Positions 4,570 through 64,000 of a stretch of DNA of 64,000 bases are shown one piece after another (the first letter of the stretch is position 1; each line of letters starts with the position of its first letter). A program made the translations under genes and the position numbers. Origin of the DNA: a virus; IMG/VR virus record IMGVR_UViG_3300009159_005817, positions 58,426 through 122,425 of that record. One strand, written 5' to 3'. Below the pieces are notes generated by a model. It was not told the DNA's origin. It did no database searches and saw nothing but the letters and a program-made list of their open reading frames with translations.

Positions 4570-4570
4570 T

Positions 4571-25079: not shown

Positions 25080-25172
25080 CAGCGTTCAAACTCTGAGTTT
25101 CAGGAATAAATAGAAATATAAACGAACAAAAAAGCGCGCAGCGGCTTCCACCTCTGAGTACCAAGAATAAAT
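25080..25172 (+). repeat. imperfect direct repeat with CTCTGAGT and GAATAAAT
   Basis: CAGCG, CTCTGAGT and GAATAAAT occur in order twice: CTCTGAGT at 25091 and 25152, GAATAAAT at 25104 and 25165, both 61 bp apart. The second copy ends in the start codon of the first capsid-targeted gene. Confidence 0.65.
25106..25112 (+). promoter_or_regulatory. possible late-type promoter core ATAAATA
   Basis: GGAATAAATAGAAATATAAACG resembles the leaders at 28880 and, on the minus strand, at 60921. Similar in shape to the T4 late core TATAAATA. Precedes the capsid-targeted cassette. Confidence 0.35.
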
Positions 25173-25548
25173 GAAATCAATACCTACATATCACGAATTC
25201 CTTAATGAGACCGTCTCATTTAATACCGATACTACTGGTCGTGAAGATTGGGATGATGATCTAAAGAAACATTCTAGAGATTTTACTCAATCTATAGTAA
25301 TAATGAGTCCGATGGATTTCTTGAAGAGAGTTCAATATCACCGATTTGAGATTAATAAATCTAAAGTGGCTAATTATGTTAAAGAATTTCGTGGTAATGT
25401 CAAAGGAATTCCAGCACCAACCATGTGGTTCTCTGATAAGTTTCAATACGATAAAGGACTTGCTCCTGCTTTTCATGATGGATCTCATCGCATGCTAGCT
25501 CTACAAGAAGTAGGGATACGAGAAGTTCCGGTTAAAATTATATACTAA
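25171..25548 (+). CDS. capsid-targeted internal protein with ParB/Srx-like domain
   Basis: 125 residues. The N-terminus MKSIPTYHEFLNE has the shared tag of this cassette, with LNE as the expected prohead-protease cut after residue 13. The body ends in PAFHDGSHRMLALQEVGI followed by REVPVKIIY, which matches the DGxHR-A-G-VPV core of ParB/sulfiredoxin-fold proteins. That fold includes nucleases, kinases and NTPases. Packaging in the capsid and delivery into the host is inferred from the tag. Confidence 0.7.
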   Translation: MKSIPTYHEFLNETVSFNTDTTGREDWDDDLKKHSRDFTQSIVIMSPMDFLKRVQYHRFEINKSKVANYVKEFRGNVKGIPAPTMWFSDKFQYDKGLAPAFHDGSHRMLALQEVGIREVPVKIIY

Positions 25549-25549
25549 G

Positions 25550-26170
25550 ATGAAAAACATTCAAACATACGAAAGCTTCTTAAATGAACTTCGACATTCA
25601 AAAGAGTTTTTAATAGACCTATTTTCTAAAATGGATATTTTAGATAATGATGTATACAAAAACATTTTAATCCATTACATTGAACAACCACAAAATTTAG
25701 AAAAACAAGAGTTCATTGATTTAGTTTCATGGTTGATCCAGAATAAAAACAAGTACAGTGAAGTACTAAAGCCTAAAAATGGATATGCATACAGAGGAAC
25801 TTCAATAACTCCTGATATGTTTCATAAATTAAAAAATGGATTATCAAAAAAAGAAGGTGGTATAAGCATATTTAACTTTCCTTATACCAGCGAATCAGAA
25901 GCACAAAGTTGGACATATGATTATAAAGTAGCAATGAGGTTTGCGGATAAAGGTCTTTTAAATAACCCTAGATTAGAAAAAGGAGCTAGACCAGCTATTT
26001 TAAGAGCTAAGATAGATGATACATTTGTAGGTAATCCTAAGTTGACTGGTCCCATAGCTGACCGATTAAGTCTGAAGTCCGAAAAGGAAATATTTCATTT
26101 AGGGAATTCTATAAAAGATGCTGAATGGATGATATTCTCAGCCGATATAGAATTAGGAAAATTTAATTAG
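25550..26170 (+). CDS. capsid-targeted ADP-ribosyltransferase-like protein
   Basis: 206 residues. Tag MKNIQTYESFLNE (cut expected after residue 13). The body shows an R-S-E type ADP-ribosyltransferase pattern: YRG at residues 81-83, YTSESE at 112-117 leading into YKVAMRFA, and EKEIF near 178-182 as the ExE site. T4 Alt, a packaged and injected enzyme with the same type of N-terminal peptide, modifies host RNA polymerase; the analogy is close. Target unknown. Confidence 0.7.
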   Translation: MKNIQTYESFLNELRHSKEFLIDLFSKMDILDNDVYKNILIHYIEQPQNLEKQEFIDLVSWLIQNKNKYSEVLKPKNGYAYRGTSITPDMFHKLKNGLSKKEGGISIFNFPYTSESEAQSWTYDYKVAMRFADKGLLNNPRLEKGARPAILRAKIDDTFVGNPKLTGPIADRLSLKSEKEIFHLGNSIKDAEWMIFSADIELGKFN

Positions 26171-26180
26171 TATAAAGACT

Positions 26181-26579
26181 ATGAAATCAATATCGACATA
26201 TGATGAATTCTTAAATGAGTCTATTCGTGCAGAAGAGGCTTATCGAGATACAGGAGCTATTCAAACCGTCATTGATGGAAAGAGAGATATGGGATTCATT
26301 ACCATCAAATCATCGGTTGATGTGAGCGAAAAAGAATTCTGGACATTGGTGAAGATACACGATCTGAGTACCATTCACCTATCTGGAAATGAATATGATG
26401 CCTATATCTATTATCATAAAGGAGCCGAGCGAGGTGCCAGAGAGCTAGCGAAGATTGCTAACAAATACGGTGGATATCTATCACATGAAGCGACTGAACG
26501 AGAATCTCGTCGAATAGGCGAACTTCTAGGTTACGATCGACGAGACATAGATGATTATATAAAGAAAAACTACAAATAA
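26181..26579 (+). CDS. capsid-targeted internal protein, unknown body
   Basis: 132 residues. Tag MKSISTYDEFLNE, then a charged alpha/beta body ending in ESRRIGELLGYDRRDIDDYI. I recognise no catalytic motif. Its stop overlaps the next start (TAATG). Confidence 0.7.
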   Translation: MKSISTYDEFLNESIRAEEAYRDTGAIQTVIDGKRDMGFITIKSSVDVSEKEFWTLVKIHDLSTIHLSGNEYDAYIYYHKGAERGARELAKIANKYGGYLSHEATERESRRIGELLGYDRRDIDDYIKKNYK

Positions 26580-26734
26580 TGGATAATGGAAAACGTAATC
26601 AATTAAAACCTGTGAGAATCGCTGATGTTAATAAGTTGGTGGCTAATGATCCGAGGATTCTTATTAAAGTTAATCATAAAGGTGGAAGTGGAGTTTCTCT
26701 TATGAACACTAATAAAATTAAAGACCGAAAATAA
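26579..26734 (+). CDS. small basic protein, 51 aa
   Basis: ATG overlaps the preceding stop codon as TAATG and the stop lies 2 nt before the next gene, so it sits exactly in the operon. Sequence is Lys/Asn-rich and ends KIKDRK; it lacks the capsid tag. Function unknown. Confidence 0.55.
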   Translation: MDNGKRNQLKPVRIADVNKLVANDPRILIKVNHKGGSGVSLMNTNKIKDRK

Positions 26735-26736
26735 GA

Positions 26737-27441
26737 ATGAGAAAGATAGCCTTATATGAGCAATGGATAAATGAAATTGGTGATTCATCAGCCAAGCCAT
26801 TCAAATGGAGTAGTCCTGTTATCGCTGTTAATATGAAGAGATGGATAGATGATTGTATCGAAGGAGCTGCAGACAAGAAGATGAGTGGAACTCAAGAAGA
26901 TATTTACTATAAAACTAAAACATTTAGATATGAATTCCGATCGGATGTGACTAATACAAATTATCATGTACACATCGGTGGATTTGTTGGTAGAAATATC
27001 TGGATTGCCTTTCAAGGAGAAAAACCTAAAGATTGGGTTGGATATCATATAATTGCCGGATTAGGATTTGGTGTTGAAGGAGATTTCGATAAAACTACTA
27101 ATCTTAATGAACAATTCCGAGTAATGGCAACCGTTACCGAATGTGCCATTGATTTTCTACAACGATTCTTGGATGATGGACGAATCAAGATTGATAAATT
27201 TCACATGAAACCTAAGGCCGATCACGAAGAACAAAAAGGAATAGATTCTCGTCGAGCTAAACTATATGCCCCTTATATTAAAGCCGCATTCCGCAAACTC
27301 AAAACGAAGAAGGATTATTACATAGATCAAGAGGCAGATGGATTCGTTCTTCATTTCGGAAAGGTCATAATGAACTCTCCTTATTCCACTTCAGTATTAG
27401 CATCAACCTTTGAAAATGAAGAATCCAATGAAATCAATTAA
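26737..27441 (+). CDS. capsid-targeted internal protein, unknown body
   Basis: 234 residues. Tag MRKIALYEQWINE. The body has a beta-rich middle (NTNYHVHIGGFVGRNIWIAF) and a Lys-rich C-terminal helical part (IKAAFRKLKTKKDYYID). No family recognised. Overlaps the next gene by 14 nt. Confidence 0.7.
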   Translation: MRKIALYEQWINEIGDSSAKPFKWSSPVIAVNMKRWIDDCIEGAADKKMSGTQEDIYYKTKTFRYEFRSDVTNTNYHVHIGGFVGRNIWIAFQGEKPKDWVGYHIIAGLGFGVEGDFDKTTNLNEQFRVMATVTECAIDFLQRFLDDGRIKIDKFHMKPKADHEEQKGIDSRRAKLYAPYIKAAFRKLKTKKDYYIDQEADGFVLHFGKVIMNSPYSTSVLASTFENEESNEIN

Positions 27442-28498
27442 GCTATATGAAGCCTTCTTAACAGAAGGAGGCTGGGCAACAACCAAAACACAAGGAACCG
27501 TTCTGACTCCAGCTGTTATCGCTGAGGTTGTGAAGGTTATGGATCTGATCAATACGGGATTCAATGGACATTTGAGAGAGCTTGAACTTCCCACTCTAGA
27601 TATTCTAAAACCTATTGGCAGTGGAACTTGGTGGAGTGAAGATGTGACCGAACAACCAGACAAAACTTATGGAGATGTCGATTACATGGTTGCCTATCCC
27701 ACTTTGAAGCTCACTGCTGGTCGTGATAGAGAAGATGAGATTGCTACGGTGAAGCTATACAATACCGAGCTGCTCATGTGGTTAGAGGAAGAAGGTATCA
27801 CCGATGTAGATATTGATGAGACGAAGAAAATATCTTCGGATGTTTCTCTTAAGTTAATTGCGATCGTTCCCTTTAATGGAACTGATGCATATGTTCAGGT
27901 TGATATGGTTGTTACTCACAAAGAGTATAGTGATTGGGCAGTATTCCGTATGACTCCTATTCGTAACGTTAAAGGTTTTGTGCTAGGAAATCTCTACTCT
28001 TCATTTGGTGAAGTTCTAGATTTGTCTATTCAGGCAAGAGGAGTAAGAGCTAAATTTGAAGGTCAGGTTATGAAGCCTTATTCTAAACGAGCTAATGTTG
28101 AGGATCGCATCATCTCACAAAATGCTGAATCATTCATGACCGATATCGCTCGTTTCTTTTGGGAACAGAGCGGAACAGATATTCCATTCACCGCTACTCC
28201 TATCGAATCTTGGAAGGGAATGGATCGCAACTCTCCTCGATTCGAAGATCTAGCCGAAGGAATTCGTCTGGTTGCCGAGACACTAGGTCAGCTAGACGAA
28301 TTTGGAACTACTATTAAATACAAATCAGCTGCTGATCTACTAAATGCAGTGATTGCTCAATATACGAAGAAGATGATGGAAGCTTATAATTCTGCTAAAT
28401 TTGATAAGGCAGAAACTCCAGCAGCAAAAGCCATTATCACTAAAGTTAGAGCAACCATTGACGAATATATCAGTCTGGCTAAATCACTACTTACATAA
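27428..28498 (+). CDS. capsid-targeted nucleotidyltransferase-fold protein
   Basis: 356 residues, start set at 27428 because this gives the tag MKSIKLYEAFLTE; ATGs at 27410 and 27416 would hide it behind six residues. The body has a nucleotidyltransferase core: GSGTWW near residue 64, DVD at 83-85 and a third Asp in YVQVDMVV near 159. Such folds transfer NMP groups to RNA, proteins or antibiotics. A helical second half follows. As a packaged enzyme it could nucleotidylate a host target. Confidence 0.7.
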   Translation: MKSIKLYEAFLTEGGWATTKTQGTVLTPAVIAEVVKVMDLINTGFNGHLRELELPTLDILKPIGSGTWWSEDVTEQPDKTYGDVDYMVAYPTLKLTAGRDREDEIATVKLYNTELLMWLEEEGITDVDIDETKKISSDVSLKLIAIVPFNGTDAYVQVDMVVTHKEYSDWAVFRMTPIRNVKGFVLGNLYSSFGEVLDLSIQARGVRAKFEGQVMKPYSKRANVEDRIISQNAESFMTDIARFFWEQSGTDIPFTATPIESWKGMDRNSPRFEDLAEGIRLVAETLGQLDEFGTTIKYKSAADLLNAVIAQYTKKMMEAYNSAKFDKAETPAAKAIITKVRATIDEYISLAKSLLT

Positions 28499-28505
28499 AA
28501 GTAAT

Positions 28506-28880
28506 ATGTTATACTATTCACCAAAAATTGCAGTCGGAGAATCGACTGTAGCAGGCAGAGGTGTATTTGCCATAGCCGATATAGAGGCTGGAGAGGTACT
28601 TGAAGAGTGCCACTTCTTTTTACTAACTAATGGTAATCATTCAGCTATGGATGATACTTTAAAAGAGATGGTATTCGCATGGCCGGCATATAATGATGTT
28701 CATCAATTTGCTGTTGTACTAGGCAGTGGAACTGTTTATAATCATTCATATGAAAACAATGCAACCTGGGATACTGATGAAGCTAAATGCTGTTTCAGAT
28801 TTTCTTCTACTCGAGACATAAAGGCCGGTGAAGAGATATTCACAAATTATAACCGAAGCGGAGGAAATCACTTTGATTGA
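28506..28880 (+). CDS. SET-domain protein
   Basis: 124 residues; start at ATG 28506, since the upstream frame overlaps the previous gene. SET landmarks: GRGVFAIADIEAGEVL near residue 18, YNHSYENN near 78 and AGEEIFTNYN near 107. SET domains methylate protein lysines. No post-SET cysteines are present and the tag is missing, so it is probably made in the infected cell or packaged by other means. Confidence 0.75.
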   Translation: MLYYSPKIAVGESTVAGRGVFAIADIEAGEVLEECHFFLLTNGNHSAMDDTLKEMVFAWPAYNDVHQFAVVLGSGTVYNHSYENNATWDTDEAKCCFRFSSTRDIKAGEEIFTNYNRSGGNHFD

Positions 28881-28886
28881 TAAATA
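28880..28886 (+). promoter_or_regulatory. possible late-type promoter core ATAAATA
   Basis: GATAAATATAAAAACACACA, 20 nt before the ATG at 28907. The minus-strand leader at 60921 reads almost the same (ATAAATATAAAAACAAACAA). It overlaps the stop of the SET gene. Confidence 0.35.
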
Positions 28887-28906
28887 TAAAAACACACAAA
28901 AGCTAA

Positions 28907-29824
28907 ATGGCTAATTCAACATACACAGATCTTCAAGTTCTTATTCAACGAATAAGAGGTAAGCGAGTTCTTCTTCTTACAACATCTAATAGATGGAGTG
29001 GTGATGAAGGAGGAAAACCTAAATCTACTCAATTGGCTGAGTTAATAGCCAGATCTTTATACGACGATTCAACGGATTCTACTCTTTGTAAAGTAATAGA
29101 TATTCCATCTCTCAATATTCACAACTGTGAAGGTAATGTATCTTCCGGAAGTGGTAATGGTTGTGGAGTTAAGGCTGCTGCCCTAAAGGATACCACTAAA
29201 AATCCTACTGGTAATCTTCGTTGTTGGGCTTCTATTAATAATGCCGATGATGAGTTATGGAAAGTTAGTAATGCTATATTCGAATCAGATGTAGTCCTCT
29301 TCTTTGCTTCTACAAGATGGGGTCAGGCAAATGCATTCTATCAAAAACTTATCGAACGTCTAACTTGGTTAGAGAATCGTCACACTACTCTTGGTGAATC
29401 TAATCTACTAGGAAATATTGAAGCTGGTGGATTCTTCATTGGACACAATTGGAATGTAGAAGATGTAATGAATACTCAAAGAACGGTACTTCAGTATTTC
29501 GGATTTCAAGTTCCACCTCAACTTTTTCTTCACTGGCAATGGACTAATAGTGATACTAACGAAACTCAGAAAGGATATGAAGCTGATGCTAAAGACTTCA
29601 AAGAGGTTTGGAAAGTTGGAACATATCCTTTAGAGGAAAGTTTTAATCGTTGGTTGAATGAAGCTGGTTATGATGCTGGTTCTAGAAAACCTACTCCGGA
29701 AGAGGTTGAAATGTGCAAATCTCCAGAAGGATTTAATCAGATAAACCACTGCAAAGCTTTAGGACTTACTCCTCGTGAAGATGGAACCAAAGCCAAATCT
29801 AAAAAATATGGTGGTGACGCATAA
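28907..29824 (+). CDS. flavodoxin-like NAD(P)H:FMN reductase-type protein
   Basis: 305 residues. LLTTSNRWSGDEGGKPKSTQLAELI is a flavin-binding loop with its helix, VVLFFASTRWGQANAFYQKLIERL the substrate-side strand and helix, and GNIEAGGFFIGHNWN the third strand, as in NADPH-dependent FMN reductases. The last ~80 residues are an extension with a Cys pair. It lacks the capsid tag although it sits in the middle of that cassette. Confidence 0.65.
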   Translation: MANSTYTDLQVLIQRIRGKRVLLLTTSNRWSGDEGGKPKSTQLAELIARSLYDDSTDSTLCKVIDIPSLNIHNCEGNVSSGSGNGCGVKAAALKDTTKNPTGNLRCWASINNADDELWKVSNAIFESDVVLFFASTRWGQANAFYQKLIERLTWLENRHTTLGESNLLGNIEAGGFFIGHNWNVEDVMNTQRTVLQYFGFQVPPQLFLHWQWTNSDTNETQKGYEADAKDFKEVWKVGTYPLEESFNRWLNEAGYDAGSRKPTPEEVEMCKSPEGFNQINHCKALGLTPREDGTKAKSKKYGGDA

Positions 29825-30606
29825 TGAAACCGATAAAACTTTTTGAAGATTTTATTAATGAATTCGATACAGGTAAAGTATTACTAGGTGATCCTTCTTT
29901 ATTGGGTAGACCTAATAAATGGGAAGATCTCGGAATAGAGTTTGAACCTAATACTGCTGACAAAACTCAATTAATACAATTGATAAAAGATTGGATTTTT
30001 AAAGTAAAGGCAGATCCAAAGATGGGACATATCCTTAAAGAATTGCTGCCCTTAAAAAAGAAGTTTCCGAAAATATTAGAACCATCTGAAGGTAGATCCG
30101 TCTATGAAGGTACTTCTCTTTATAGAGGAACTATAATACCATTTAAAGAAGTGTTATCACTAAAGGGTAAATGGAAACGTAACGACGCGGTTGATATTTT
30201 TGGTGGTAGCCTAAATCTCAGTACATCATATAATTGGGAAAGTATTAATAGAAAGGGATTCACTTCGTTTACACCATCTATCGAAATAGCGGCCACTTTT
30301 GCAGGAAGCCTTAGTTCAGAAAATTATAACGAAATTGTAGCATCTAAAACGGTTGTTAAAAGATTATTAGATGGATCCATTGATGGTATGATTCCGATGA
30401 TTATTAAAATTAAAGACACACATCCCTTAGCAATTATGAATCCGGTGTTTACTCAATCAATTCACGAATTCATGAATGAATTTGAGGTATTTGTTGTTGG
30501 AAATAAAATCCGGGTTGATGAAGTTATAATTCCAGGATGGCATTACTACGAAAGAGATGCTAAAGAATTAGGAGTAGATCTTACAAAATATTTTAACATA
30601 CAATGA
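29824..30606 (+). CDS. second capsid-targeted ADP-ribosyltransferase-like protein
   Basis: 260 residues. Tag MKPIKLFEDFINE. Body: YRG at residues 100-102, GFTSFTPSIEIAATFA at 145-160 as the STS region, and EFEVFV at 219-224 as the ExE strand. All three R-S-E motifs are in order and spaced as in VIP2/Alt-like toxins. Little sequence similarity to the protein at 25550 outside the motifs, so the two probably have different targets. Confidence 0.7.
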   Translation: MKPIKLFEDFINEFDTGKVLLGDPSLLGRPNKWEDLGIEFEPNTADKTQLIQLIKDWIFKVKADPKMGHILKELLPLKKKFPKILEPSEGRSVYEGTSLYRGTIIPFKEVLSLKGKWKRNDAVDIFGGSLNLSTSYNWESINRKGFTSFTPSIEIAATFAGSLSSENYNEIVASKTVVKRLLDGSIDGMIPMIIKIKDTHPLAIMNPVFTQSIHEFMNEFEVFVVGNKIRVDEVIIPGWHYYERDAKELGVDLTKYFNIQ

Positions 30607-31211
30607 AACATATCCAAGGTTTTAATACATTCCTTAATGAAGGCGAAGGTTTATTTGCTGATGCCGGTAAAGGATCTACTAAAGGAATTGGATATGGAAC
30701 GCCAGAAAAAGCTAAAGAGACTATTAAGATCGCTGACAAAATGAAGGCAGACGATCCAGGAAAAGCCGTTCAAATCGTTAATGCCATGCTCAATCGAGCT
30801 AAATACTCAAATGGTCAGAATGATGGCATGAGAGCAGCAATTCCCATCTTTCAAAAATGGTTAAAGGCCAATCAAGCATCTGAATCATTTTTAGGAGTTG
30901 ATGAATTCATTCTAGAAAAACTTTGGCAAAAGGAAGTAGAATCTTCTCACCTTAACGAAATTGAATATGACTCATCAACTGAAGAACTAACTATTACTTT
31001 TAACAATGGAGACCGCTACAGATATTATGAAGTTCCTAAATCCATCTTCCGAGAATTTGCCAATGAGAAAACTATTCTAGGAAAGATTGGTGGAGGAATT
31101 GTCAAAGGAGCCAAGAAGCTATTTGGTAAGGATATTGACGAAGGTACATATGGTAAAAAATTCTGGTCACTCATTCGTCGAGGTGGCTATCAATACGAAA
31201 AACTCTCATGA
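30603..31211 (+). CDS. capsid-targeted protein with C-terminal KTSC domain
   Basis: 202 residues. Tag MKHIQGFNTFLNE. A helical middle part (DKMKADDPGKAVQIVNAMLN) is followed by a KTSC-like domain at about residues 115-200 (TFNNGDRYRYYEVPKSIFREFA). The stand-alone KTSC protein at 9672 shares this layout. Overlaps both neighbours by 4 nt. Confidence 0.7.
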   Translation: MKHIQGFNTFLNEGEGLFADAGKGSTKGIGYGTPEKAKETIKIADKMKADDPGKAVQIVNAMLNRAKYSNGQNDGMRAAIPIFQKWLKANQASESFLGVDEFILEKLWQKEVESSHLNEIEYDSSTEELTITFNNGDRYRYYEVPKSIFREFANEKTILGKIGGGIVKGAKKLFGKDIDEGTYGKKFWSLIRRGGYQYEKLS

Positions 31212-31873
31212 AAGAAATAAAATTATATGAGCAATGGCTCAATGAAATCGATGGTCCTGCAGATGGATCTCTATTCGGTACATCCGGAGTAGATTTTGGA
31301 TTCATCGGTCTGCAAGATCCAGGAGACACACCAAATTCGTTTGAACCTAATATGGTTGAATCCTTTATTATTGATCTTCTTCAAAGACACAATAATACCG
31401 TTCCTTCTCCTGGCACACTTACCGTCGAGTATCTTGAAGATATCGAAAAGGTACAAACCGGAATGAGTGATAAAGATCGATCATTTGTTCAGGCAGTTAA
31501 TAATAATCCTATGGCTTTTCATGTTGAAGATGCCAAGAAAGCTGGTATTGATCTAGATGGTAAATGGTTAACTGAATGTTGGGATTATGCTACCAGTGTA
31601 GCAGGTACTGCAAAAGATATTTGGAAAGTAAAACGTCCATTTGAATTAAGCTCAAAAGTCAAGGGGTTGGTTCCTACTAAATCCTTCTCATTTCCTTCAA
31701 CTAATGCGGCCGGATCTTTTTATGTAGCAAAAAAGGTTGCAGAGAAATATCCTCAATTGAAAGAATCTCAAATGGAAGTGGCTACTCAAATAGCAAATTC
31801 ACGAGTTGTTGCCGGTGTGCATCATCCATTAGATATTGCCGTTGGAAAAATGTTAGCCTTAGGCTTATTATAA
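31208..31873 (+). CDS. capsid-targeted PAP2-like phosphatase
   Basis: 221 residues. Tag MKEIKLYEQWLNE. The body carries the acid phosphatase/PAP2 motifs: KVKRPF (residues 140-145), FPSTNAAGSF (163-171) in the place of PSGH, and SRVVAGVHHPLD (198-209), the SRxxxGxHxxxD signature. The His of the middle motif is replaced by Asn, which in other family members would weaken or change catalysis. It has no membrane helices, so it belongs to the soluble class A type. Confidence 0.7.
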   Translation: MKEIKLYEQWLNEIDGPADGSLFGTSGVDFGFIGLQDPGDTPNSFEPNMVESFIIDLLQRHNNTVPSPGTLTVEYLEDIEKVQTGMSDKDRSFVQAVNNNPMAFHVEDAKKAGIDLDGKWLTECWDYATSVAGTAKDIWKVKRPFELSSKVKGLVPTKSFSFPSTNAAGSFYVAKKVAEKYPQLKESQMEVATQIANSRVVAGVHHPLDIAVGKMLALGLL

Positions 31874-32427
31874 TGTTCAAGAAATTTAGACAATTCATTA
31901 ATGAAGATATTCATATACCTTCCGGTAAATGGATAGACACTGACCTTAAAGGTCAGGATGATGATATGATGCAACTCATATGGACAATGTATACTGACAC
32001 ATACTCTAAACAAGGATTAGATTTCTCTGCCGATGATTATGCTGAACTTAAAACTAAATACCAAGCAACATTCTTAAAGGATGTTGACCATGATCGTATT
32101 CCAGATGCCTTTATTATATACAAGAAAACGAAGTATGGAAATAAGATTGCTCTTCTAGGAACTAATGATAAGAAGACTGCAAAACGAGATCTTCTAGAAA
32201 AAACTATTTCATTACTTAAAAATCCTGGTTGGTTGTTAGAGGCCTCTCGTAAAATGGAAGAGATTCTTTCAAATTCAAATGTTCCTTATATTGAAGATCC
32301 TGAAATCATTGCTGATATTGTCGGTAAAGACAAGAAACCTGAAATGGTTAAACATGGATATTATACAAGACTTCTTTCAAAAACACCAAAGCGTATCTTA
32401 AAACGCATGTATGGTAAGGTCAAATAG
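31873..32427 (+). CDS. capsid-targeted internal protein, unknown body
   Basis: 184 residues. Shorter tag MFKKFRQFINE (cut after residue 11). The body contains KDVDHDRIPDAFIIYKKT, NPGWLLEASRKMEEIL and a basic C-terminus KRILKRMYGKVK, and reads like a GNAT-like conserved phage module. No activity can be assigned. Last gene of the cassette. Confidence 0.65.
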   Translation: MFKKFRQFINEDIHIPSGKWIDTDLKGQDDDMMQLIWTMYTDTYSKQGLDFSADDYAELKTKYQATFLKDVDHDRIPDAFIIYKKTKYGNKIALLGTNDKKTAKRDLLEKTISLLKNPGWLLEASRKMEEILSNSNVPYIEDPEIIADIVGKDKKPEMVKHGYYTRLLSKTPKRILKRMYGKVK

Positions 32428-32511: not shown

Positions 32512-35500
32512 ATGAGAAACAAACATATGAAAAATCCTATTTTAATTTGCCTGTTACTATTTAATTTAATTGTAATTGGACAAACAACACCTAAAGAAAG
32601 ATACATAAACAATTCTGATTATCTTTCTAAAAACTCCTTAGTCGATTACAAAAGCTATTACGGAGATTCCATACAAGGATTCGACGAAGCAGCTATGAAA
32701 GTTGAACTACTAAGACGAAACGTTTTTGGTTCAGAATACATCAACTACATTGCTCTTGTAAAAAGAGAATGGGTAAATCAAAAGTACGGTATCAAACCTG
32801 TACTACCTATCAATTCAAACAACCGACCTATTGGAGGTCCTAACTCAGTTAATTCACCTGGTAATGCTTGTGTGAATGAAGACTTTGAGCTTACTGCACC
32901 TGGAGCTTATAATGGAATGAATTCTGTTTTAGGATGGACAATTCAAAGTGGACAAAATACTTCCAATATCTGTTGTGGAAATCCTACATATGGTGCTGGC
33001 TGTGTTGCTAATCCTATTGCTAATTGGAATGCAGGTAGTCCTGAATTTTCTATTGTTGCTACTCCAATACTACCTGCTCCTAGTTGTGCTAATCCTCCTG
33101 GATTTAGTATTGACAATGTATCAATACCTAATTCACCTCTTGGCGGTAACCGAGTTGCAAGACTACAAAACTCATGTCCAACCGGTTTGATGACTCGAAT
33201 TATGACACAATTTCCTGTTTCAAATTCTAATACCTTATTTCAATTTTGTTATGCTGGTTCATGGGATGGTGTTCATGAATGTTGTGGACAACCTGCTTTT
33301 AGAATCGATATGTATAATTGTACAGGTTCATTAATCCCAATACCATGTGCCAATGTAAGCCTAACTCCTTCCGGACAATCTTGTCAAAGTGGAGTTCCTG
33401 GATATCAGGTAACCAGTGGAGTTTCATGGGTTAATTGGCAAACAAAATATATTGACTTAACTCCTTATATTGGTCAGTGTATTAGAATTGTGGTAACTTG
33501 CTCAGATTGTTCTTATTCTGGACATCATGGAACTGCTTATTTTGATGCAAGATGCGGTGGTCAATTAGTTGGAGTTGGATTAGGTGGAGTTGGTGGAAAC
33601 ATTGCAGGACCTGTTAGTTATTGTGCTGGTTCAAATCAAGCTATTATTGCCGCACCATTGGGATACTCGTCATATCAATGGATATCTCCTATCACAGGAA
33701 CAATTCCTGCTAATGCAGGAGGTACAGCTCCAGTATTAACCATAAGTCCAGTAGTTGCAGGTTTAGTGTATACAGTTCAGTTAAACTCACCATCAGGGTG
33801 TTCTTATATTGCAACCAATACAATCATGCCTACTCTTGTAAACATTGCAGGTATTGGTTCAGGCACAAGTTGTGCAGGAGGATCAAGTGGAACGGGTACT
33901 GTTCAAGGTAATGGCAGTGGCACAGGATACAATTATACTTGGGTAAATTCAAATAATGCTGTAGTTGGTACCTCAGCAACAGTAAGTGGACTGCTTCCAG
34001 GAACATATAGCGTAACTATAACTGGTCTTGGCGCTGCAGGATGTGGTTCAGCAACATCAACTATATCAATAGGAGTTGGAATACCTCAAATGCAAAATCT
34101 ATTAAAACCGTATTGTGGTTCTCAAGCCTATTTAAGTGTAACGGGTAATAGTGTTCAGTGGTCTACCAACAATACAGCTATCTCCGCTCCATTAGGAGTG
34201 GCAATGGGATACACAGTAAACAATCCAGTACAGGCTTCAGTATACACAGTTACCTATACTTCATTACAAAATTGTAATGAAGCAGCTTCATTCACCCTAA
34301 TACCATCTCCGCCGGGCAGTATATCATTACTAACTACTTCTGTTTGTTTAAACTCGACAAATGGCAGTGGAACTATTAATCTAACTCCTGCATCTGGTTC
34401 TCCTCCTGGAGCTAATTCATATTCAGTATGGAATTCTAATAATACTCCGGTTTACAATTCATCATTGTCTCCTACTAATCAAAATAATTATTTGTTTGGA
34501 AACATGGGAACCGGTAGTTATCAAGTAAGAGTATTTGATGGTTCCTGTGCATACACAACTTCCTTTATTATACCTACTCATGTATTTTCTCCTACATTAA
34601 GTCCAACCTCAACAACTCTATGTCCTGGTGGAGGTATTGCAGCCGGAGTAGTATTTAGTATTCCACCATCATTATCTCAATACACTTACTCTTGGACACC
34701 TAATATCTTTTTAGCAGGAAACACTCAACAATCAACGATTATCATACCAAATCTTGCAGTAGGTACGCAATCAAATATAACTTACTCAGTTGTAATTACT
34801 CCTACTGCTATTAATTGTCCGATGACTCGTACATTAAATTTATGGGCAATCAATCCACCAATTCCAACTATTACTGCAATACCTAATATGTGTAACAATA
34901 TGCTTCCATATCAAGTATTGGCTAATCCCAGTGGTGGTATCTTTACCGGAGTTGGAATGAGTACATTAGGTTTAATCTCTCCGACTGCTTCACTATTAGG
35001 AATCAATAACTTTACATATGCCATTTCAATTAGTACTTGCGCATCATCTAATACTGGAAGTTATCAGGTATCATATTTCAATACTTCATCATTAAGCTCT
35101 TCAATAAATCCTATATGTTCTACTAATTCAACAATAAATCTTATGACTATTGTTCAGAATACCTTAGGATCTTGGTCAGGTAATTATATAACGAATAACA
35201 TATTCAATCCAGCAAATCTAAATGGAGTATACTCATTAACCTACAATAATTTATCAACACCAAATCCTACAGTATGTCCTTCATCTACTCAAATGAATAT
35301 ATCGGTTACTAATACAATAATTCCGACTATTGCAAATTCCAATCCATTCTGTACGAATGCCTCCTCTTTTGTATTGATCGCTAATCCAAATGGAGGAATC
35401 TGGTCTAACAATTCTGCAGTGAGCGGTTTAGGTATTGTAACTCCTTCATTGACATCTCCTACAAATACAACGGTTAATTATGTCGTTAATGTTGGTCCAT

Positions 35501-37479
35501 GTATAAACACAAACACATTCAACATATATCCATCAACTTTCAATACGGCTTCTTTAACTGGATCTATCCCTAATTTATGCGTAACGAGCTCATCAATAAA
35601 TCTAATGTCAATCGTACAAAATACGACTGGATCTTGGTCAGGAATGAATGTTACTCAAAACATATTCAACCCTTCAGGATTACCGACCGGAAATTATACT
35701 TTAACATACAATACCAACTCGGCTCCTAATGTTACTCTATGTCCAGATAACCGAACAATAAACATATCGGTTCTTAATCCGGCATCTCCGAACATTACTA
35801 CATTCGGACCTATATGTAGCAAAGATGCTATTATGCAAATGACCGTTACTCCTAATTCTGGTAGTTGGATTTCTACTCCATATCTAAACATTAATGGAAT
35901 ATTAAATCCTTCGCTATGTCCTATTGGAATTAATGCCATTCAATATGTAATAGGAACTAATACTTGTTCGGCTCAACAAACAAAAACCTTTGTGGTTGAG
36001 ATGTTCATTCCATCAACGATAACAAATCAAATACCTGACTTGTGTAATACCAGCTCTCCCATAAATCTTAATTCATATTCTGGTTTTCCTGGATCTTGGT
36101 CAGGATTAGGAATCAATGGTTCAATGTTTACTCCATCGAATTCAGGAACATTAATTCTAGTACATACCACATCATCATCTAGTGGTTTATGTCCTAGTAC
36201 GTCAAGCATATCAGTTAGAGTATATTCATTACAATCTCCAGTAATAATCAAGCCAAATTCTGTATGTAACACATATGCGCCTTTCCAATTACAAGTAAAT
36301 CCAATCGGTGGTATATTCGGAGGTAATGGATCTAATACTAACGGAATTTTTAATCCAGCATATGGAGCGATAGGAAACAATATAATTAATTACAGCATTT
36401 CTGCCGGTCCTTGTATAGCATATGCACAGACTACTGTTAATATTGAGAAATTTATATCGGCTGATCTAGATCGATACCCTAAAACCGTTTATTGTAAAGG
36501 TACTGAATATCCTTTTAATCTGAATTCGTTAGTCAAAAATCCAAATTATAATTGGTCTGGTCCTGGAGTAAATGGTTATATGTTCGATCCACAAATGGCA
36601 AACATCGGAAACAACCTAATATATTATCGAACGCATTCTGCACCAACGGCTTCATTATGTCCGGATGAAAAATCATTTAACATAAGGGTTGCTCAAATAA
36701 GTAAACCCATCATATCGCTATCTGATTCAATTGGTTGTGTTCCTCTTAGAGTAATTCTCAATTCAAACGAAAATACTGGATTATCTTCTTGGAAATTTAG
36801 TAATGGATATTCTAGTGAAGCCAATTCTCTTGCATATACATTTACTTCAAGCGGAATACATTCAATAATATTCTCATATATCAATGATGAAGGTTGTGTA
36901 TCGCCAAATCAAATGATTACTCTTATTAGAGTTGATGAGGTACCTTTTCCCAAGTTTCAATTACCAAAATCCATTTATGCAGGAGATTCAGAAATCCAAG
37001 CAATAAATCTAACTCCTAATGTAGGAAGTTACACTTACACATGGATGGTATCTAATGGATATTCAGTAAACACAATTAATCTTGCATACGATCCCAAGAA
37101 AATAGGCAAGTACGAAATAACATTAATTGCAAAGACGGTTAATGGATGCACGGCATCTACTAGAAAAATGATAGAGATACAAAACGAATTTGAAGTACAT
37201 ATCCCAAATACTTTCACTCCTAATAGAGATGGTCTCAACGATTATTTTCTTCCAGTATTTTCTGACTATGGAGTTGAGTTATCTTTTTATACACTAGAGA
37301 TTTTCGATCGATGGGATCACTTAATTTATAGATCAATCGATCCTAAAAAAGGATGGGATGGAAAAGCCAAAAATGAATTATGTCAACAAGGATCCTATGT
37401 ATACAGACTTAAGTTTTCTGATAAAGAGAAGAATGTGTATGAGAAGATTGGACATGTTCTCCTTTTAGGATCCGATTAA
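32512..37479 (+). CDS. giant secreted adhesin with T9SS type B (gliding-motility) C-terminal domain
   Basis: 1655 residues. A Sec signal peptide follows the second ATG (32527): MKNPILICLLLFNLIVIGQ. Then come a Cys-rich lectin-like region (residues ~120-350), Ig/PKD-like modules, and at least four repeats of a bipartite module with the GSWSG and CPxxxxxNISV landmarks. PKD-like domains lead to the C-terminal ~90 residues: HIPNTFTPNRDGLNDYF, FYTLEIFDRWDHLIYRS, KGWDGKAKNELCQQGSYVYRL. That is the type B type IX secretion sorting domain. A phage gene with this signal should be exported by the host T9SS to the cell surface. Confidence 0.9.
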   Translation: MRNKHMKNPILICLLLFNLIVIGQTTPKERYINNSDYLSKNSLVDYKSYYGDSIQGFDEAAMKVELLRRNVFGSEYINYIALVKREWVNQKYGIKPVLPINSNNRPIGGPNSVNSPGNACVNEDFELTAPGAYNGMNSVLGWTIQSGQNTSNICCGNPTYGAGCVANPIANWNAGSPEFSIVATPILPAPSCANPPGFSIDNVSIPNSPLGGNRVARLQNSCPTGLMTRIMTQFPVSNSNTLFQFCYAGSWDGVHECCGQPAFRIDMYNCTGSLIPIPCANVSLTPSGQSCQSGVPGYQVTSGVSWVNWQTKYIDLTPYIGQCIRIVVTCSDCSYSGHHGTAYFDARCGGQLVGVGLGGVGGNIAGPVSYCAGSNQAIIAAPLGYSSYQWISPITGTIPANAGGTAPVLTISPVVAGLVYTVQLNSPSGCSYIATNTIMPTLVNIAGIGSGTSCAGGSSGTGTVQGNGSGTGYNYTWVNSNNAVVGTSATVSGLLPGTYSVTITGLGAAGCGSATSTISIGVGIPQMQNLLKPYCGSQAYLSVTGNSVQWSTNNTAISAPLGVAMGYTVNNPVQASVYTVTYTSLQNCNEAASFTLIPSPPGSISLLTTSVCLNSTNGSGTINLTPASGSPPGANSYSVWNSNNTPVYNSSLSPTNQNNYLFGNMGTGSYQVRVFDGSCAYTTSFIIPTHVFSPTLSPTSTTLCPGGGIAAGVVFSIPPSLSQYTYSWTPNIFLAGNTQQSTIIIPNLAVGTQSNITYSVVITPTAINCPMTRTLNLWAINPPIPTITAIPNMCNNMLPYQVLANPSGGIFTGVGMSTLGLISPTASLLGINNFTYAISISTCASSNTGSYQVSYFNTSSLSSSINPICSTNSTINLMTIVQNTLGSWSGNYITNNIFNPANLNGVYSLTYNNLSTPNPTVCPSSTQMNISVTNTIIPTIANSNPFCTNASSFVLIANPNGGIWSNNSAVSGLGIVTPSLTSPTNTTVNYVVNVGPCINTNTFNIYPSTFNTASLTGSIPNLCVTSSSINLMSIVQNTTGSWSGMNVTQNIFNPSGLPTGNYTLTYNTNSAPNVTLCPDNRTINISVLNPASPNITTFGPICSKDAIMQMTVTPNSGSWISTPYLNINGILNPSLCPIGINAIQYVIGTNTCSAQQTKTFVVEMFIPSTITNQIPDLCNTSSPINLNSYSGFPGSWSGLGINGSMFTPSNSGTLILVHTTSSSSGLCPSTSSISVRVYSLQSPVIIKPNSVCNTYAPFQLQVNPIGGIFGGNGSNTNGIFNPAYGAIGNNIINYSISAGPCIAYAQTTVNIEKFISADLDRYPKTVYCKGTEYPFNLNSLVKNPNYNWSGPGVNGYMFDPQMANIGNNLIYYRTHSAPTASLCPDEKSFNIRVAQISKPIISLSDSIGCVPLRVILNSNENTGLSSWKFSNGYSSEANSLAYTFTSSGIHSIIFSYINDEGCVSPNQMITLIRVDEVPFPKFQLPKSIYAGDSEIQAINLTPNVGSYTYTWMVSNGYSVNTINLAYDPKKIGKYEITLIAKTVNGCTASTRKMIEIQNEFEVHIPNTFTPNRDGLNDYFLPVFSDYGVELSFYTLEIFDRWDHLIYRSIDPKKGWDGKAKNELCQQGSYVYRLKFSDKEKNVYEKIGHVLLLGSD

Positions 37480-60930: not shown

Positions 60931-63900
60931 TTAGATGTTGTTTTTCATCTGCGATTCTAGATTTTCTACTTTGGCGGTTAATTCTTTAATTGCCTCTATT
61001 AATACCGCAACCATATTTTGATAGGCTACTGCATAAGTTCCATCATTTTTTTGATAAACTACTTCTGGAATTATGGTCATAACCTCTTGAGCAATAACAC
61101 CCATGAAACGATCACTTGATTCAGAATCAATACGTTCATAAGTTACACCTCTCAAGGAATTTACTTTATTTAAGGCCTCTATTATAGTTTCTACATTAGT
61201 TTTAACTCTTGCATCCGAGAATGCAATAATATCATTACTTGCATAAATAGAAACGTTTGCATTAGCACCAACTACCTCTATTGGGTAATTAGGCGCAGGA
61301 GTTCCAACTCCCAGATAATTATTGGTATAATCAAATACTAAATTAGGATTAGCATCGAAAGCTCCAGTATTATTATAAATCACTTGAGTATTAGTTCCAG
61401 GAACAGTTCCAGATCCAGCAGATCCTTGAATTCCTTGGAATCCTTGATTTCCACTACCTTGATTACCTTGGAATCCAAATCCTTGGAATCCTTGGAATCC
61501 TTGAGATCCTTTAGCTCCTTGATCTCCTTTAGTTCCTTGTGGTCCTTGAAATCCTTGTACTCCTGAAGTTCCGGATATACCGTTTAGACCAGTAGCACCT
61601 TGGAATCCTTGATCTCCTTTAGCACCTTGATCGCCTTTGGTACCTTGTATACCCTGGAATCCTTGGAATCCTTGTGAACCCTTAGCTCCTTGATCTCCCT
61701 TGGTTCCTTGAATACCTTGGAATCCTTGATCGCCTTTAGCACCTTGGTCACCCTTAGCACCTTGATCTCCTTTGGTACCTTGGATTCCCTGGAAACCTTG
61801 ATCTCCTTTAGTACCCTGAATACCTTGAAATCCTTGATTACCGATAGTTCCTTGAATACCTTGGAAACCTTGATTACCAAAGGTTCCTTGTATACCTTGG
61901 AATCCTTGATCTCCTTTAGCACCTTGATCGCCTTTGGTACCTTGTATACCCTGGAATCCTTGGAATCCTTGATTACCTTTATCTCCTTGATCGCCTTTAG
62001 CACCTTGTATTCCTTGAAATCCTTGATCTCCTTTGGTACCTTGAATACCTTGGAATCCTTGATCTCCTTTAGCGCCTTGGTCACCTTTAGCTCCTTGATC
62101 TCCTTTGGTTCCTTGTATACCTTGGAATCCTTGATCTCCTTTAGCACCTTGATCTCCTTTAGTACCCTGTATACCTTGAAAACCTTGATTACCAATAGTT
62201 CCTTGAATACCTTGGAATCCTTGATCTCCTTTAGCTCCTTGAATACCTTGGAATCCTTGATCTCCTTTAGCTCCTTGATCGCCTTTAGTACCTTGTATTC
62301 CTTGGAAACCTTGATTACCTTTATCTCCTTGATTACCTTGAAAACCTTGATTACCAATAGTTCCTTGAATACCTTGAAAACCTTGATTACCAATAGTTCC
62401 TTGAATACCTTGGAATCCTTGGAAACCTTGATCTCCTTTAGCTCCTTGATCTCCTTTAGCACCTTGGTCACCTTTGGTTCCTTGTATACCTTGAAAACCT
62501 TGATTACCGATGGTTCCTTGATCTCCTTTAGCACCTTGATTACCGATAGTTCCTTGAATTCCTTGAAAACCTTGATTACCTTGGGAACCATCTATACCAG
62601 CAATACCGAAAGTACCTTGGAATCCTTGATCTCCTTGTAATCCTTGTGAACCTTGTGTACCAACGGTACCTTGTCTACCTTGGAATCCTTGTGTACCAAC
62701 AGTTCCTTGTCTACCTTGAAAACCTTGTGTACCAACAGTACCTTGAATTCCTTGGAATCCTTGATCTCCTTTAGAACCCTGTATACCTTGGAATCCTTGA
62801 TCTCCTTTGGTCCCTTGTATACCTTGGAATCCTTGATCTCCTTTGGTTCCTTGAATTCCTTGAAAACCTTGATCTCCTTTAGCACCTTGATCTCCTTTAG
62901 CACCTTGATCTCCTTTGGTTCCTTGAATTCCTTGAAAACCTTGATCTCCCTTAGAACCCTGAATACCTTGGAATCCTTGATCGCCTTTGGTTCCTTGAAT
63001 TCCTTGAAAACCTTGATTACCAATAGTTCCTTGAATTCCATAAGGTCCTTGAAAACCTTGTACACCAGAAGTTCCGGATATACCGTTTAGGCCGGTAGCT
63101 CCTTGGAATCCTTGATCGCCTTTATCACCTTGGTTACCGATAGTTCCTTGTATACCTTGGAATCCCTGAGAACCTTTAGCTCCTTGATCTCCTTTAGTTC
63201 CTTGAATACCCTGAAACCCTTGATCTCCTTTAGCACCTTGATCGCCTTTAGCACCTTGGAATCCTTGATCTCCTTTGGTTCCTTGAATTCCTTGAAAACC
63301 TTGATCTCCTTTAGAACCTTGAATACCTTGAAAACCTTGATTACCAACAGTACCTTGAATTCCTTGAAATCCTTGATCTCCTTTAGAACCCTGAATACCT
63401 TGAAAACCTTGATCTCCTTTGGTTCCTTGTATTCCTTGGAATCCTTGGTCACCTTTAGCACCTTGGAATCCTTGATCTCCTTTGGTTCCTTGAATTCCTT
63501 GAAAACCTTGATCTCCTTTAGAACCTTGAATTCCTTGAAATCCTTGATTACCTTTATCGCCTTGATTACCTTGAAAACCTTGATTACCAACGGTACCTTG
63601 AATACCTTGAAAACCTTGATTACCAACGGTTCCTTGTATTCCTTGGAATCCTTGGTCACCTTTAGCACCTTGGAATCCTTGATCTCCTTTGGTTCCTTGA
63701 ATTCCTTGAAAACCTTGATCTCCTTTAGAACCTTGAATTCCTTGGAATCCTTGATCTCCTTTGGTTCCTTGATCGCCTTTAGTACCCTGTATTCCTTGAA
63801 AACCTTGGAATCCTCTATCTCCTTGATCTCCTTTAGGTCCTTGGAATCCTTGTACTCCAGAAGTTCCGGATATACCATTTAAACCAGTAGCACCTTGGAA

Positions 63901-64000
63901 ACCTTGATCTCCTTTAGCGCCTTGATCTCCTTTGGTTCCTTGTATTCCTTGGAATCCTTGATCTCCTTTGGTACCTTGAATACCCTGAATACCTTGGAAA
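60931..64000 (-). CDS. collagen-like tail fibre with C-terminal S74 chaperone domain, 5' end outside window
   Basis: One frame is open on the minus strand from the window edge to 60931. The frame at 63999 and at the S74 domain agree (distance a multiple of 3). From 64000 to about 61400 it encodes about 870 residues of Gly-X-Y repeats such as GDQGAKGDQGFQG and GIQGTKG. The insert GATGLNGISGTSGVQGF appears three times (about 61590, 63095 and 63885). The C-terminus carries the peptidase S74 / endosialidase chaperone: FSDARVKTNVETI, GVTYERIDS, RFMGVIAQEV, VAVLIEAIKEL. The chaperone should fold the trimer and cut itself off. Confidence 0.9.
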   Translation of the reverse strand, partial: FQGIQGIQGTKGDQGFQGIQGTKGDQGAKGDQGFQGATGLNGISGTSGVQGFQGPKGDQGDRGFQGFQGIQGTKGDQGTKGDQGFQGIQGSKGDQGFQGIQGTKGDQGFQGAKGDQGFQGIQGTVGNQGFQGIQGTVGNQGFQGNQGDKGNQGFQGIQGSKGDQGFQGIQGTKGDQGFQGAKGDQGFQGIQGTKGDQGFQGIQGSKGDQGFQGIQGTVGNQGFQGIQGSKGDQGFQGIQGTKGDQGFQGAKGDQGAKGDQGFQGIQGTKGDQGAKGSQGFQGIQGTIGNQGDKGDQGFQGATGLNGISGTSGVQGFQGPYGIQGTIGNQGFQGIQGTKGDQGFQGIQGSKGDQGFQGIQGTKGDQGAKGDQGAKGDQGFQGIQGTKGDQGFQGIQGTKGDQGFQGIQGSKGDQGFQGIQGTVGTQGFQGRQGTVGTQGFQGRQGTVGTQGSQGLQGDQGFQGTFGIAGIDGSQGNQGFQGIQGTIGNQGAKGDQGTIGNQGFQGIQGTKGDQGAKGDQGAKGDQGFQGFQGIQGTIGNQGFQGIQGTIGNQGFQGNQGDKGNQGFQGIQGTKGDQGAKGDQGFQGIQGAKGDQGFQGIQGTIGNQGFQGIQGTKGDQGAKGDQGFQGIQGTKGDQGAKGDQGAKGDQGFQGIQGTKGDQGFQGIQGAKGDQGDKGNQGFQGFQGIQGTKGDQGAKGDQGFQGIQGTFGNQGFQGIQGTIGNQGFQGIQGTKGDQGFQGIQGTKGDQGAKGDQGAKGDQGFQGIQGTKGDQGAKGSQGFQGFQGIQGTKGDQGAKGDQGFQGATGLNGISGTSGVQGFQGPQGTKGDQGAKGSQGFQGFQGFGFQGNQGSGNQGFQGIQGSAGSGTVPGTNTQVIYNNTGAFDANPNLVFDYTNNYLGVGTPAPNYPIEVVGANANVSIYASNDIIAFSDARVKTNVETIIEALNKVNSLRGVTYERIDSESSDRFMGVIAQEVMTIIPEVVYQKNDGTYAVAYQNMVAVLIEAIKELTAKVENLESQMKNNI
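61400..64000 (-). repeat. Gly-X-Y coding repeats
   Basis: Tandem 9- and 18-nt units, e.g. GGAGATCAAGGATTCCAA and GGTATTCAAGGA. A higher-order unit begins at each GATGLNGISGTSGVQGF: roughly 790 and 1500 bp apart. Long open frames on the other frames and on the plus strand here are by-products. Confidence 0.85.

Follow-up and report, generated by a model that had tools for sequence, protein, structure and literature searches.

What does it mean when neighbouring phage genes encode proteins that are alike only in their first dozen residues? The question is raised by a cassette of twelve genes at positions 25171-32427 of a 64,000-nucleotide stretch of viral DNA, here called the window, which comprises bases 58426-122425 of a 122,425-base viral record (IMG/VR, IMGVR_UViG_3300009159_005817). 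Nine of the encoded proteins carry an N-terminal peptide of 11-13 residues that ends in (F/W)(L/I)(N/T)E, hereafter the tag. This shared peptide is very probably a capsid-targeting sequence (CTS) of the type found on the T4 internal proteins IPII and IPIII, greatly expanded in use, whose cargo would be ejected into the next host. An earlier note on this DNA had proposed capsid targeting, and that part of its interpretation is supported; what it said of T4 Alt is wrong.

The tag and its occurrence in the phage genome

The cassette tags are spelled MKSIPTYHEFLNE, MKNIQTYESFLNE, MKSISTYDEFLNE, MRKIALYEQWINE, MKSIKLYEAFLTE, MKPIKLFEDFINE, MKHIQGFNTFLNE, MKEIKLYEQWLNE and MFKKFRQFINE, with the N-termini at the coordinates and in the spellings that the earlier note had given. 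The glutamate is residue 13 in eight tags and residue 11 in the ninth (that of the ORF at 31873), and the figure of nine tagged genes in twelve is correct once a 51-aa open reading frame (ORF) at 26579-26734 is counted. The bodies that follow the tags are mutually unrelated, as had been claimed, with no pair among the nine matching at E 1e-4.

The same phage is represented by a longer record of 254,393 bases (G001), which was located by a search with another of its tagged proteins (L003:14143) and is collinear with the window record, from which it differs at 4 of 119,000 aligned bases. Its ORFs were called mechanically (greedy longest, at least 40 aa), with no gene finder. A matrix built from the nine cassette tags and spanning their last eight residues gives a score of at least 10 to 32 of 357 G001 ORFs and to 1 of 982 internal-methionine pseudo-N-termini; with the nine training tags set aside, 23 of 348 ORFs reach this score. 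After iteration the matrix finds 37 G001 ORFs at 8 or more, two of them judged false, and some starts that are tag-like by eye score low (e.g., 97629, 182865, 184830, and 186957); we estimate the tagged proteins of the phage at about 35-40. The search for further tagged proteins that the earlier note had advised brings several other clusters to light. Tag clusters of G001 lie near 5-14, 62-70, 93-98, 109-113, 133-138, 177-189, and 217-225 kb, and the window record opens with eight consecutive tagged genes (L001 107-3789) and contains more at L003 9955-16568.

Resemblance to T4 internal proteins and possible signs of cutting

When a matrix made from 32 G001 tags is applied blind to 280 T4 ORFs, only gp61.1 (16.1), IPII and IPIII (14.6 each) score 8 or more; the next T4 ORF scores 5.3 (T4 internal controls, 1/630), and Alt, IPI, gp68, gp21, gp22, gp23, and gp24 have low scores, gp67 being absent from the ORFs named. 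The earlier note had attributed the peptide MKTYQEFI-x-E to IPII, IPIII and Alt. The first two carry it, whereas the N-terminus of Alt, MELITELFDED, rules this protein out as a bearer of the same tag. IPI, on which the earlier note is silent, begins MKTFKEF, with the glutamate placed later. T4 gp61.1 (NC_000866.4 18966-19130; L049; 54 aa; annotated as hypothetical) starts MKTFKEFIKED and outscores IPII and IPIII; it is a candidate for an unrecognised T4 internal protein.

In T4 IPIII, residues 4 and 7 are reported to weigh most in targeting, and residues 8 and 10 in processing (PMC9026906). These correspond to Y4, F7, I8, and E10 of MKTYQEFIAE, and the matching tag columns, aligned from the glutamate, hold F/Y in 97/99, F/W/Y in 98/99 and L/I/V in 97/99 tags, fractions that are inflated and partly circular because the tags were picked by matrix score with the glutamate required; their spacing was not set by reference to T4. 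The residue directly after the glutamate (P1'), which lies outside the matrix and was not used in tag finding, is small (A, S, or G) in 69 of the 105 tags collected from four phages, as against 836 of 4,073 (20%) after internal [LIVF]xE (p 9e-23), in a count that enters homologous bodies more than once and retains about five tags judged false (G001 211697, 238680; G005 91219; G008 1515, 122280). Positions P2'-P6' of the 105 tags show no small-residue bias. A bias confined to P1' is what one would expect of a cut site. The protease ORF described below also carries xNE with A or S behind it, directly beyond the protease part, in G001 and four relatives, and the major capsid proteins of the same five phages contain LINE within their first eight residues and L(Y/N)E at 43-45. 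The major capsid ORF of phage MA9V-1 (OR050627.1, near 130794) has an in-frame start that reads MVDRWSEFINEAAPK, with a FINE motif as in the tags.

The prohead protease

The earlier note had held that a genome lacking a prohead protease would refute capsid targeting. An S77 protease (PF03420; 50.7 bits, cut-off 27) is present in G001, the longer record of this phage; its PHROG match is to the head maturation protease (5.6e-42). It is encoded between the portal and major capsid genes, of which the former is named from a reading of its sequence and position and the latter by tblastn to annotated major capsid genes. The ORF has 633 aa, compared with 212 in T4, and a long scaffold-like part follows the protease. 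S77 exceeds the cut-off in 8/9 records, among which G001 and G003 are the same phage, and the ninth is a 63-kb fragment; of the controls, T4 is positive and Flavobacterium phage MaF61 gives no match. Residues H71, S126, and D148, which we take to be catalytic, are invariant in an alignment with T4 gp21, PTm1, and PAU. No S77 match was found in the window's own 122,425-base contig, in a search in which no control genome matched either; this absence is not counted, because the contig is a fragment in which no capsid genes were found. In the phage Lak-B5 (MK250024.1, 492862-493179) the S77 frame holds two TAG codons, as if TAG encoded an amino acid.

Tags in other phages

The tag is conserved and portable beyond this one phage. 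In three related records 27/227, 18/176, and 18/227 ORFs score at least 8 (controls 0/616, 1/570, and 4/689). Sphingomonas phage PAU has 9/312 such ORFs (control 2/901), mostly of its own form such as MKTISKLYEAKLNE, MA9V-1 has 8/288 (control 2/989), and part of LR756500.1 has 6/74 (control 1/276); in MaF61 none of 222 ORFs is tagged (control 0/826). Ten further loci (nine of 21, plus L024) contain at least two tags each. The cassette proteins are 100% identical in the window record, G001 and the L006/L023 record. The full cassette is seen in one phage population, and a different, partly shared set occurs in L024/L025, where the order in L024 is an orthologue of 29824, an orthologue of 31873, a start like that of L001:1200, and a PAP2 relative; L001:1200 itself sits in another cassette of the window's phage.

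The nucleotidyltransferase-like family of L003:14143 shows how the peptide and body are combined. By eye, the tag stands at the start in 19/19 loci read (21 found; L006 and L011 unread), and six members have an extra stretch between tag and domain (L012, L013, L014, L015, L018, and L008). These stretches differ among L012, L015, L018, and L008 and are near-identical in L012, L013, and L014; the tag end of L008 is unusual. The family has no match among PDB sequences at E<=1, and a pattern scan of bacterial and archaeal genome contigs found no relative. Some tagged bodies have untagged homologues (e.g., G005 26887 with G004 66390 and G001 143701), and many other homologue partners in the same listing have tag-like starts of low score.

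The tags also seem to differ modestly from phage to phage. Tags of unrelated bodies agree at 3.07 of 7 positions within a phage and at 2.73 between phages, a difference reached in 0/500 label shuffles. Against such a dialect stand 31 cross-phage homologous pairs, in which likeness to the partner's tag (3.13) is about the same as likeness to unrelated tags of the own phage (2.97).

Proposed mechanism

What follows on packaging, on cutting, on injection and on any action in the host is our inference from these observations. During head assembly the tag would bind its protein to the scaffold core. Once the shell is closed, the S77 prohead protease, made as one ORF with a scaffold-like part, would cut after the glutamate and the peptide would leave. 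The mature body would stay with the packaged DNA and be ejected into the next host, so that one label would serve some 35-40 proteins and the accessory proteins among them would act before any phage gene is expressed. Some of the tagged proteins, with genes next to the portal gene, probably belong to the head core; the majority, the nine of the cassette included, look like exchangeable accessory proteins, that is, enzymes and probable anti-defence or host-modifying factors.

The earlier note favoured host reprogramming. T4 Ip1, Ip2, and Ip3, which have only the leader in common, are reported each to inhibit different GmrSD restriction enzymes (PMC12373910), and a review describes internal proteins as a diverse defence set in which only the CTS is conserved (PMC3012670). 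Because of this precedent, an anti-defence role of the nine proteins appears no less likely than host reprogramming.

Bodies of the cassette proteins

All twelve genes are on the plus strand, and each tag corresponds to the first 13 codons of its ORF (25171-25209 for MKSIPTYHEFLNE, a training member with a matrix score of 22.8), or to the first 11 codons at 31873. The earlier note had described the bodies as effector-like, listing three of them as unknown. The family assignment is clear by profile for the KTSC and PAP2 proteins, whereas the two ADP-ribosyltransferases (ARTs) and the nucleotidyltransferase are called from motifs, and the ParB/sulfiredoxin assignment is tentative.

The two best-supported bodies lie near the 3' end of the cassette. 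Protein 7 (202 aa, 30603-31211) has a C-terminal KTSC domain (PF13619, E 1.6e-13; 50.6 bits, cut-off 25). Protein 8 (221 aa, 31208-31873) belongs by profile to the PAP2/acid phosphatase family (PF01569, E 1.7e-7; 31.5 bits, cut-off 27.2), and when it is combined with its two tagged relatives, the joint profile finds acid phosphatase 7f17 (E 5.7e-13).

Protein 2 (206 aa, 25550-26170; YRG...ExE motif) and protein 6 (260 aa, 29824-30606) are candidate ARTs. Among 2,509 ORFs of ten genomes or parts of genomes, the R-S/T-ExE motif occurs in these two and in T4 ModA and in no others; the pattern was written after both proteins had been seen and recovers one of three known T4 ARTs (missing ModB and Alt), so the match is support for the two calls and not proof. 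Searches of Pfam, PHROG, and PDB sequences give no ART match for 25550 or 29824, and the profile matches of protein 2 are weak and unrelated. Protein 6 has a tagged orthologue in L024 (86% identity), and its AF2 model, made from two sequences, is uninformative (pLDDT 38).

Protein 5 (356 aa, 27428-28498) is a candidate pol-beta-type nucleotidyltransferase, with GS, GDxD, and a later D invariant in four sequences from as many phages, a GS...DxD...D pattern that is presumably the motif of such enzymes. Homologues in three other phages are tagged, and in all four the conserved body begins exactly after the tag glutamate (GGW). No Pfam or PHROG family matches it. Its AF2 model (pLDDT 66) resembles DNA polymerase lambda weakly (Z 4.8, the same as for unrelated CorA chains); Foldseek finds nothing in the PDB at E<=0.001 (best E 0.028, to an unrelated chain) and one match at this threshold in BFVD, a phage protein of 1,096 aa named ParB/Sulfiredoxin (A0A6J5TD12, E 9e-13). 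A profile comparison of the two nucleotidyltransferase-like families gives a probability of 57% (E 1e-4) over 76 columns, the tag itself among them.

Protein 1 (125 aa, 25171-25548) is tentatively ParB/sulfiredoxin-like by the motif HDGSHRMLALQEVGIREVPV, which we take to be of this type. Its body has no Pfam family over the cut-off and no PHROG at E<=0.01. It shares 23% identity with the tagged L001:1200 (E 2e-5 in a two-sequence comparison, tags included), which has a weak PHROG match to a ParB-like nuclease (E 4.8e-4).

The other tagged bodies have no assigned family. That of protein 3 (132 aa, 26181-26579) is 68% identical in G004 and 40% in G008, and both homologues are tagged; a relation to NleE was considered and rejected (Pfam E 7e-5, 22.9 bits, cut-off 27), and is a lead only. 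Protein 4 (234 aa, 26737-27441) and protein 9 (184 aa, 31873-32427) match no Pfam or PHROG family; the former has a tagged counterpart in G005 (33% identity) and the latter a tagged 60% orthologue in L024. Against 50,697 phage records, the cassette DNA found no similarity, and tblastn of 29824, 25550, 26181, and 27428 found no match. The untagged genes comprise the 51-aa ORF, a SET-domain protein at 28506-28880 (PF00856, E 4.6e-14; listed from TTG 28401, with its start placed at the first ATG), and a 305-aa protein at 28907-29824 with no Pfam family at E<=1.

Enzyme-like bodies are also tagged outside the cassette. A RimK-like ATP-grasp ligase (PF08443, 2.1e-34; G001 109121-110626, L040:1124-2626) is possibly an injected protein-glutamylating enzyme, and a CTP-transferase-like protein (1.4e-8) has a low-scoring tag. 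A zinc-protease-like match to the C-terminal part of the ligase falls just under the cut-off. L003:10045 presumably resembles a nucleic-acid ligase by its motif EKTDG, with no supporting database match.

Alternative explanations

The chief weak point of the capsid-targeting interpretation is in the cassette itself, where the P1' residues are T, L, S, I, G, F, G, I, and D. Only 3/9 are small, compared with 66/96 elsewhere (Fisher p 0.06), and because of this the cutting of the cassette tags may be slow or absent. The same count is the ground for supposing that the tagged proteins are packaged and the tag of this cassette is left uncut, an alternative that we consider unlikely on balance, since the glutamate is kept in 9/9 tags and the 27428-family bodies start directly behind it. 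Several other results weigh against the interpretation as well. Three ORFs of the cassette (26579-26734, the SET-domain ORF, and 28907) lack the tag. Protein 8 reads PSTN where both tagged relatives have PSGH, so the active-site histidine is absent and its activity is doubtful. Some of the PAU and MA9V-1 matches are unconvincing as tags, and Tenacibaculum phage PTm1 has an S77 protease yet only 1/346 tagged ORFs (control 2/720). In a search for late promoters, the promoter-like element TGTTAATAA marks other genes, its two entries at tagged genes being an intra-ORF copy (26626) and one at a tag judged false (238680); late expression is not claimed, because the numbers at tagged genes are too small.

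The tag might instead be a docking label of the head core, and the cassette proteins structural core helpers, like T4 gp67/gp68 or IPIII in its assembly role, in place of effectors. Several tagged genes do lie just upstream of the portal gene (G001 93264-98738), and mutants of T4 IPIII are reported to affect head assembly (PMC9026906). This explanation is nevertheless improbable for bodies among which there are PAP2, KTSC, and CTP-transferase-like domains as well as a RimK-like ATP-grasp ligase, and which vary by phage and shift between cassettes. That the tag is a leader directing proteins elsewhere, for instance to the cell envelope or a phage compartment, is very improbable in view of the match to the T4 capsid-targeting residues, the blind recovery of IPII and IPIII, and a polar and charged peptide unlike a secretion signal. 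Least credible of all is a repeated DNA element (a recombination or translation signal) in which the peptide is incidental. It has one point in its favour, a second cassette (G001 133186-137603) where codon identity is 0.73 against an expected 0.54, a sign that the tag DNA was copied there. In the reported cassette, by contrast, identical codons amount to 0.66 (expected 0.61), and in 31 collapsed G001 tags to 0.59 (expected 0.60). Since synonymous codons vary there about as codon usage predicts, and the peptide recurs in diverged phages, the sequences indicate that the peptide, not the DNA, is what is kept, and a DNA-repeat origin of the cassette's tags is rejected.

Relation to known systems

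Understood as a CTS, the tag agrees with that of T4 IPII and IPIII (MKTYQEFIAE) in its N-terminal position, in the Y/F, F/W, L/I/V, and E at the same spacing, in the unrelated bodies behind it and in the S77 protease of the genome. However, T4 has three internal proteins at two loci, whereas here 32 to about 40 tagged proteins occur in one genome, and the tags are usually 13 residues long, with N before E and several enzyme-like bodies. At least ten internal proteins are reported across T4-related phages (PMC12373910). T4 Alt, a packaged ADP-ribosyltransferase, is a model for the two candidate ARTs but carries a different N-terminal propeptide, of seven residues (PMC9026906). Giant phages related to SPN3US and phiKZ likewise trim head proteins with a prohead protease at xxE sites and eject a bolus of protein, as the phage studied here would do; their N-terminal propeptides, however, are described as mostly longer than 100 residues (PMC5694885). 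The fusion of protease and scaffold is not new, since PTm1 BBI90692.1, annotated as 'prohead core scaffolding protein and protease', also combines S77 and scaffold in one ORF adjoining the major capsid gene; unlike the present phage, PTm1 gives no tag signal above control with this matrix. The idea that T4-like phages can load a variety of proteins by means of the CTS has already been put forward in a review (PMC9026906). For Bacteroidota jumbo phages, no set of at least 30 tagged proteins in a single genome, with bodies that are enzyme-like and arranged in cassettes, was found in searches of open-access literature in which most listed papers were not opened and T4-like phages at large were not surveyed. 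The kind of system would thus be known, a T4-type CTS, and what appears new is the scale, the jumbo-phage setting, and the enzyme-like bodies in cassettes.

Host and neighbouring features

By major capsid protein, the closest phages have named hosts in Prevotella, Tenacibaculum, Chryseobacterium, and Flavobacterium, and also include Sphingomonas phage PAU, for which Sphingobacterium has been suggested as the host (PMC3738902); weaker capsid matches extend to cyanophages and others. Directly 3' of the cassette (32512-37479), the window encodes a 1,655-aa protein with PKD and CHU_C type IX secretion domains. Because of the hosts of the capsid relatives and this CHU_C domain, the host is likely a member of the Bacteroidota.

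The minus strand at 60931-63999 encodes what may be a tail fibre: a very long collagen-like repeat (FQGIQGTKGDQG), with a C-terminal part of another kind, that runs off the window. The element TGTTAATAA, often continued as TGTTAATAACTTT and then by a T-rich stretch with ATTCC, stands upstream of many genes. Its copies in the window are at 4570, 5470, 8283, 8692, 21080, 21443, 21455, 21808, 26626, 37483, 38066, 40599, 41179, 46442, and 56965, some of them within ORFs, such as 26626 inside the 51-aa ORF.

Implications

In its broadest form, which we regard as speculative, the proposal would give Bacteroidota jumbo phages a portable, one-tag delivery code, written in a partly phage-specific dialect, that fills the head with exchangeable enzymes and anti-defence proteins by the dozen. 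The opening move of infection would then be largely readable from the genome, and each dialect would be matched to the phage's own scaffold, perhaps blocking the cross-loading of cargo in co-infection.

If the tag is a CTS, the set of proteins injected by these mostly uncultured phages would be readable from sequence by a 13-residue peptide, and dozens of phage genes without an assigned function would become candidates for early takeover or anti-defence. RimK-like ligases and CTP-transferase-like proteins in phage genomes would find an explanation, since they may act at entry, and the tags would constitute a family of natural labels for loading proteins into phage heads. The arms race known from the T4 internal proteins would thereby extend to another host phylum, and on a larger scale.

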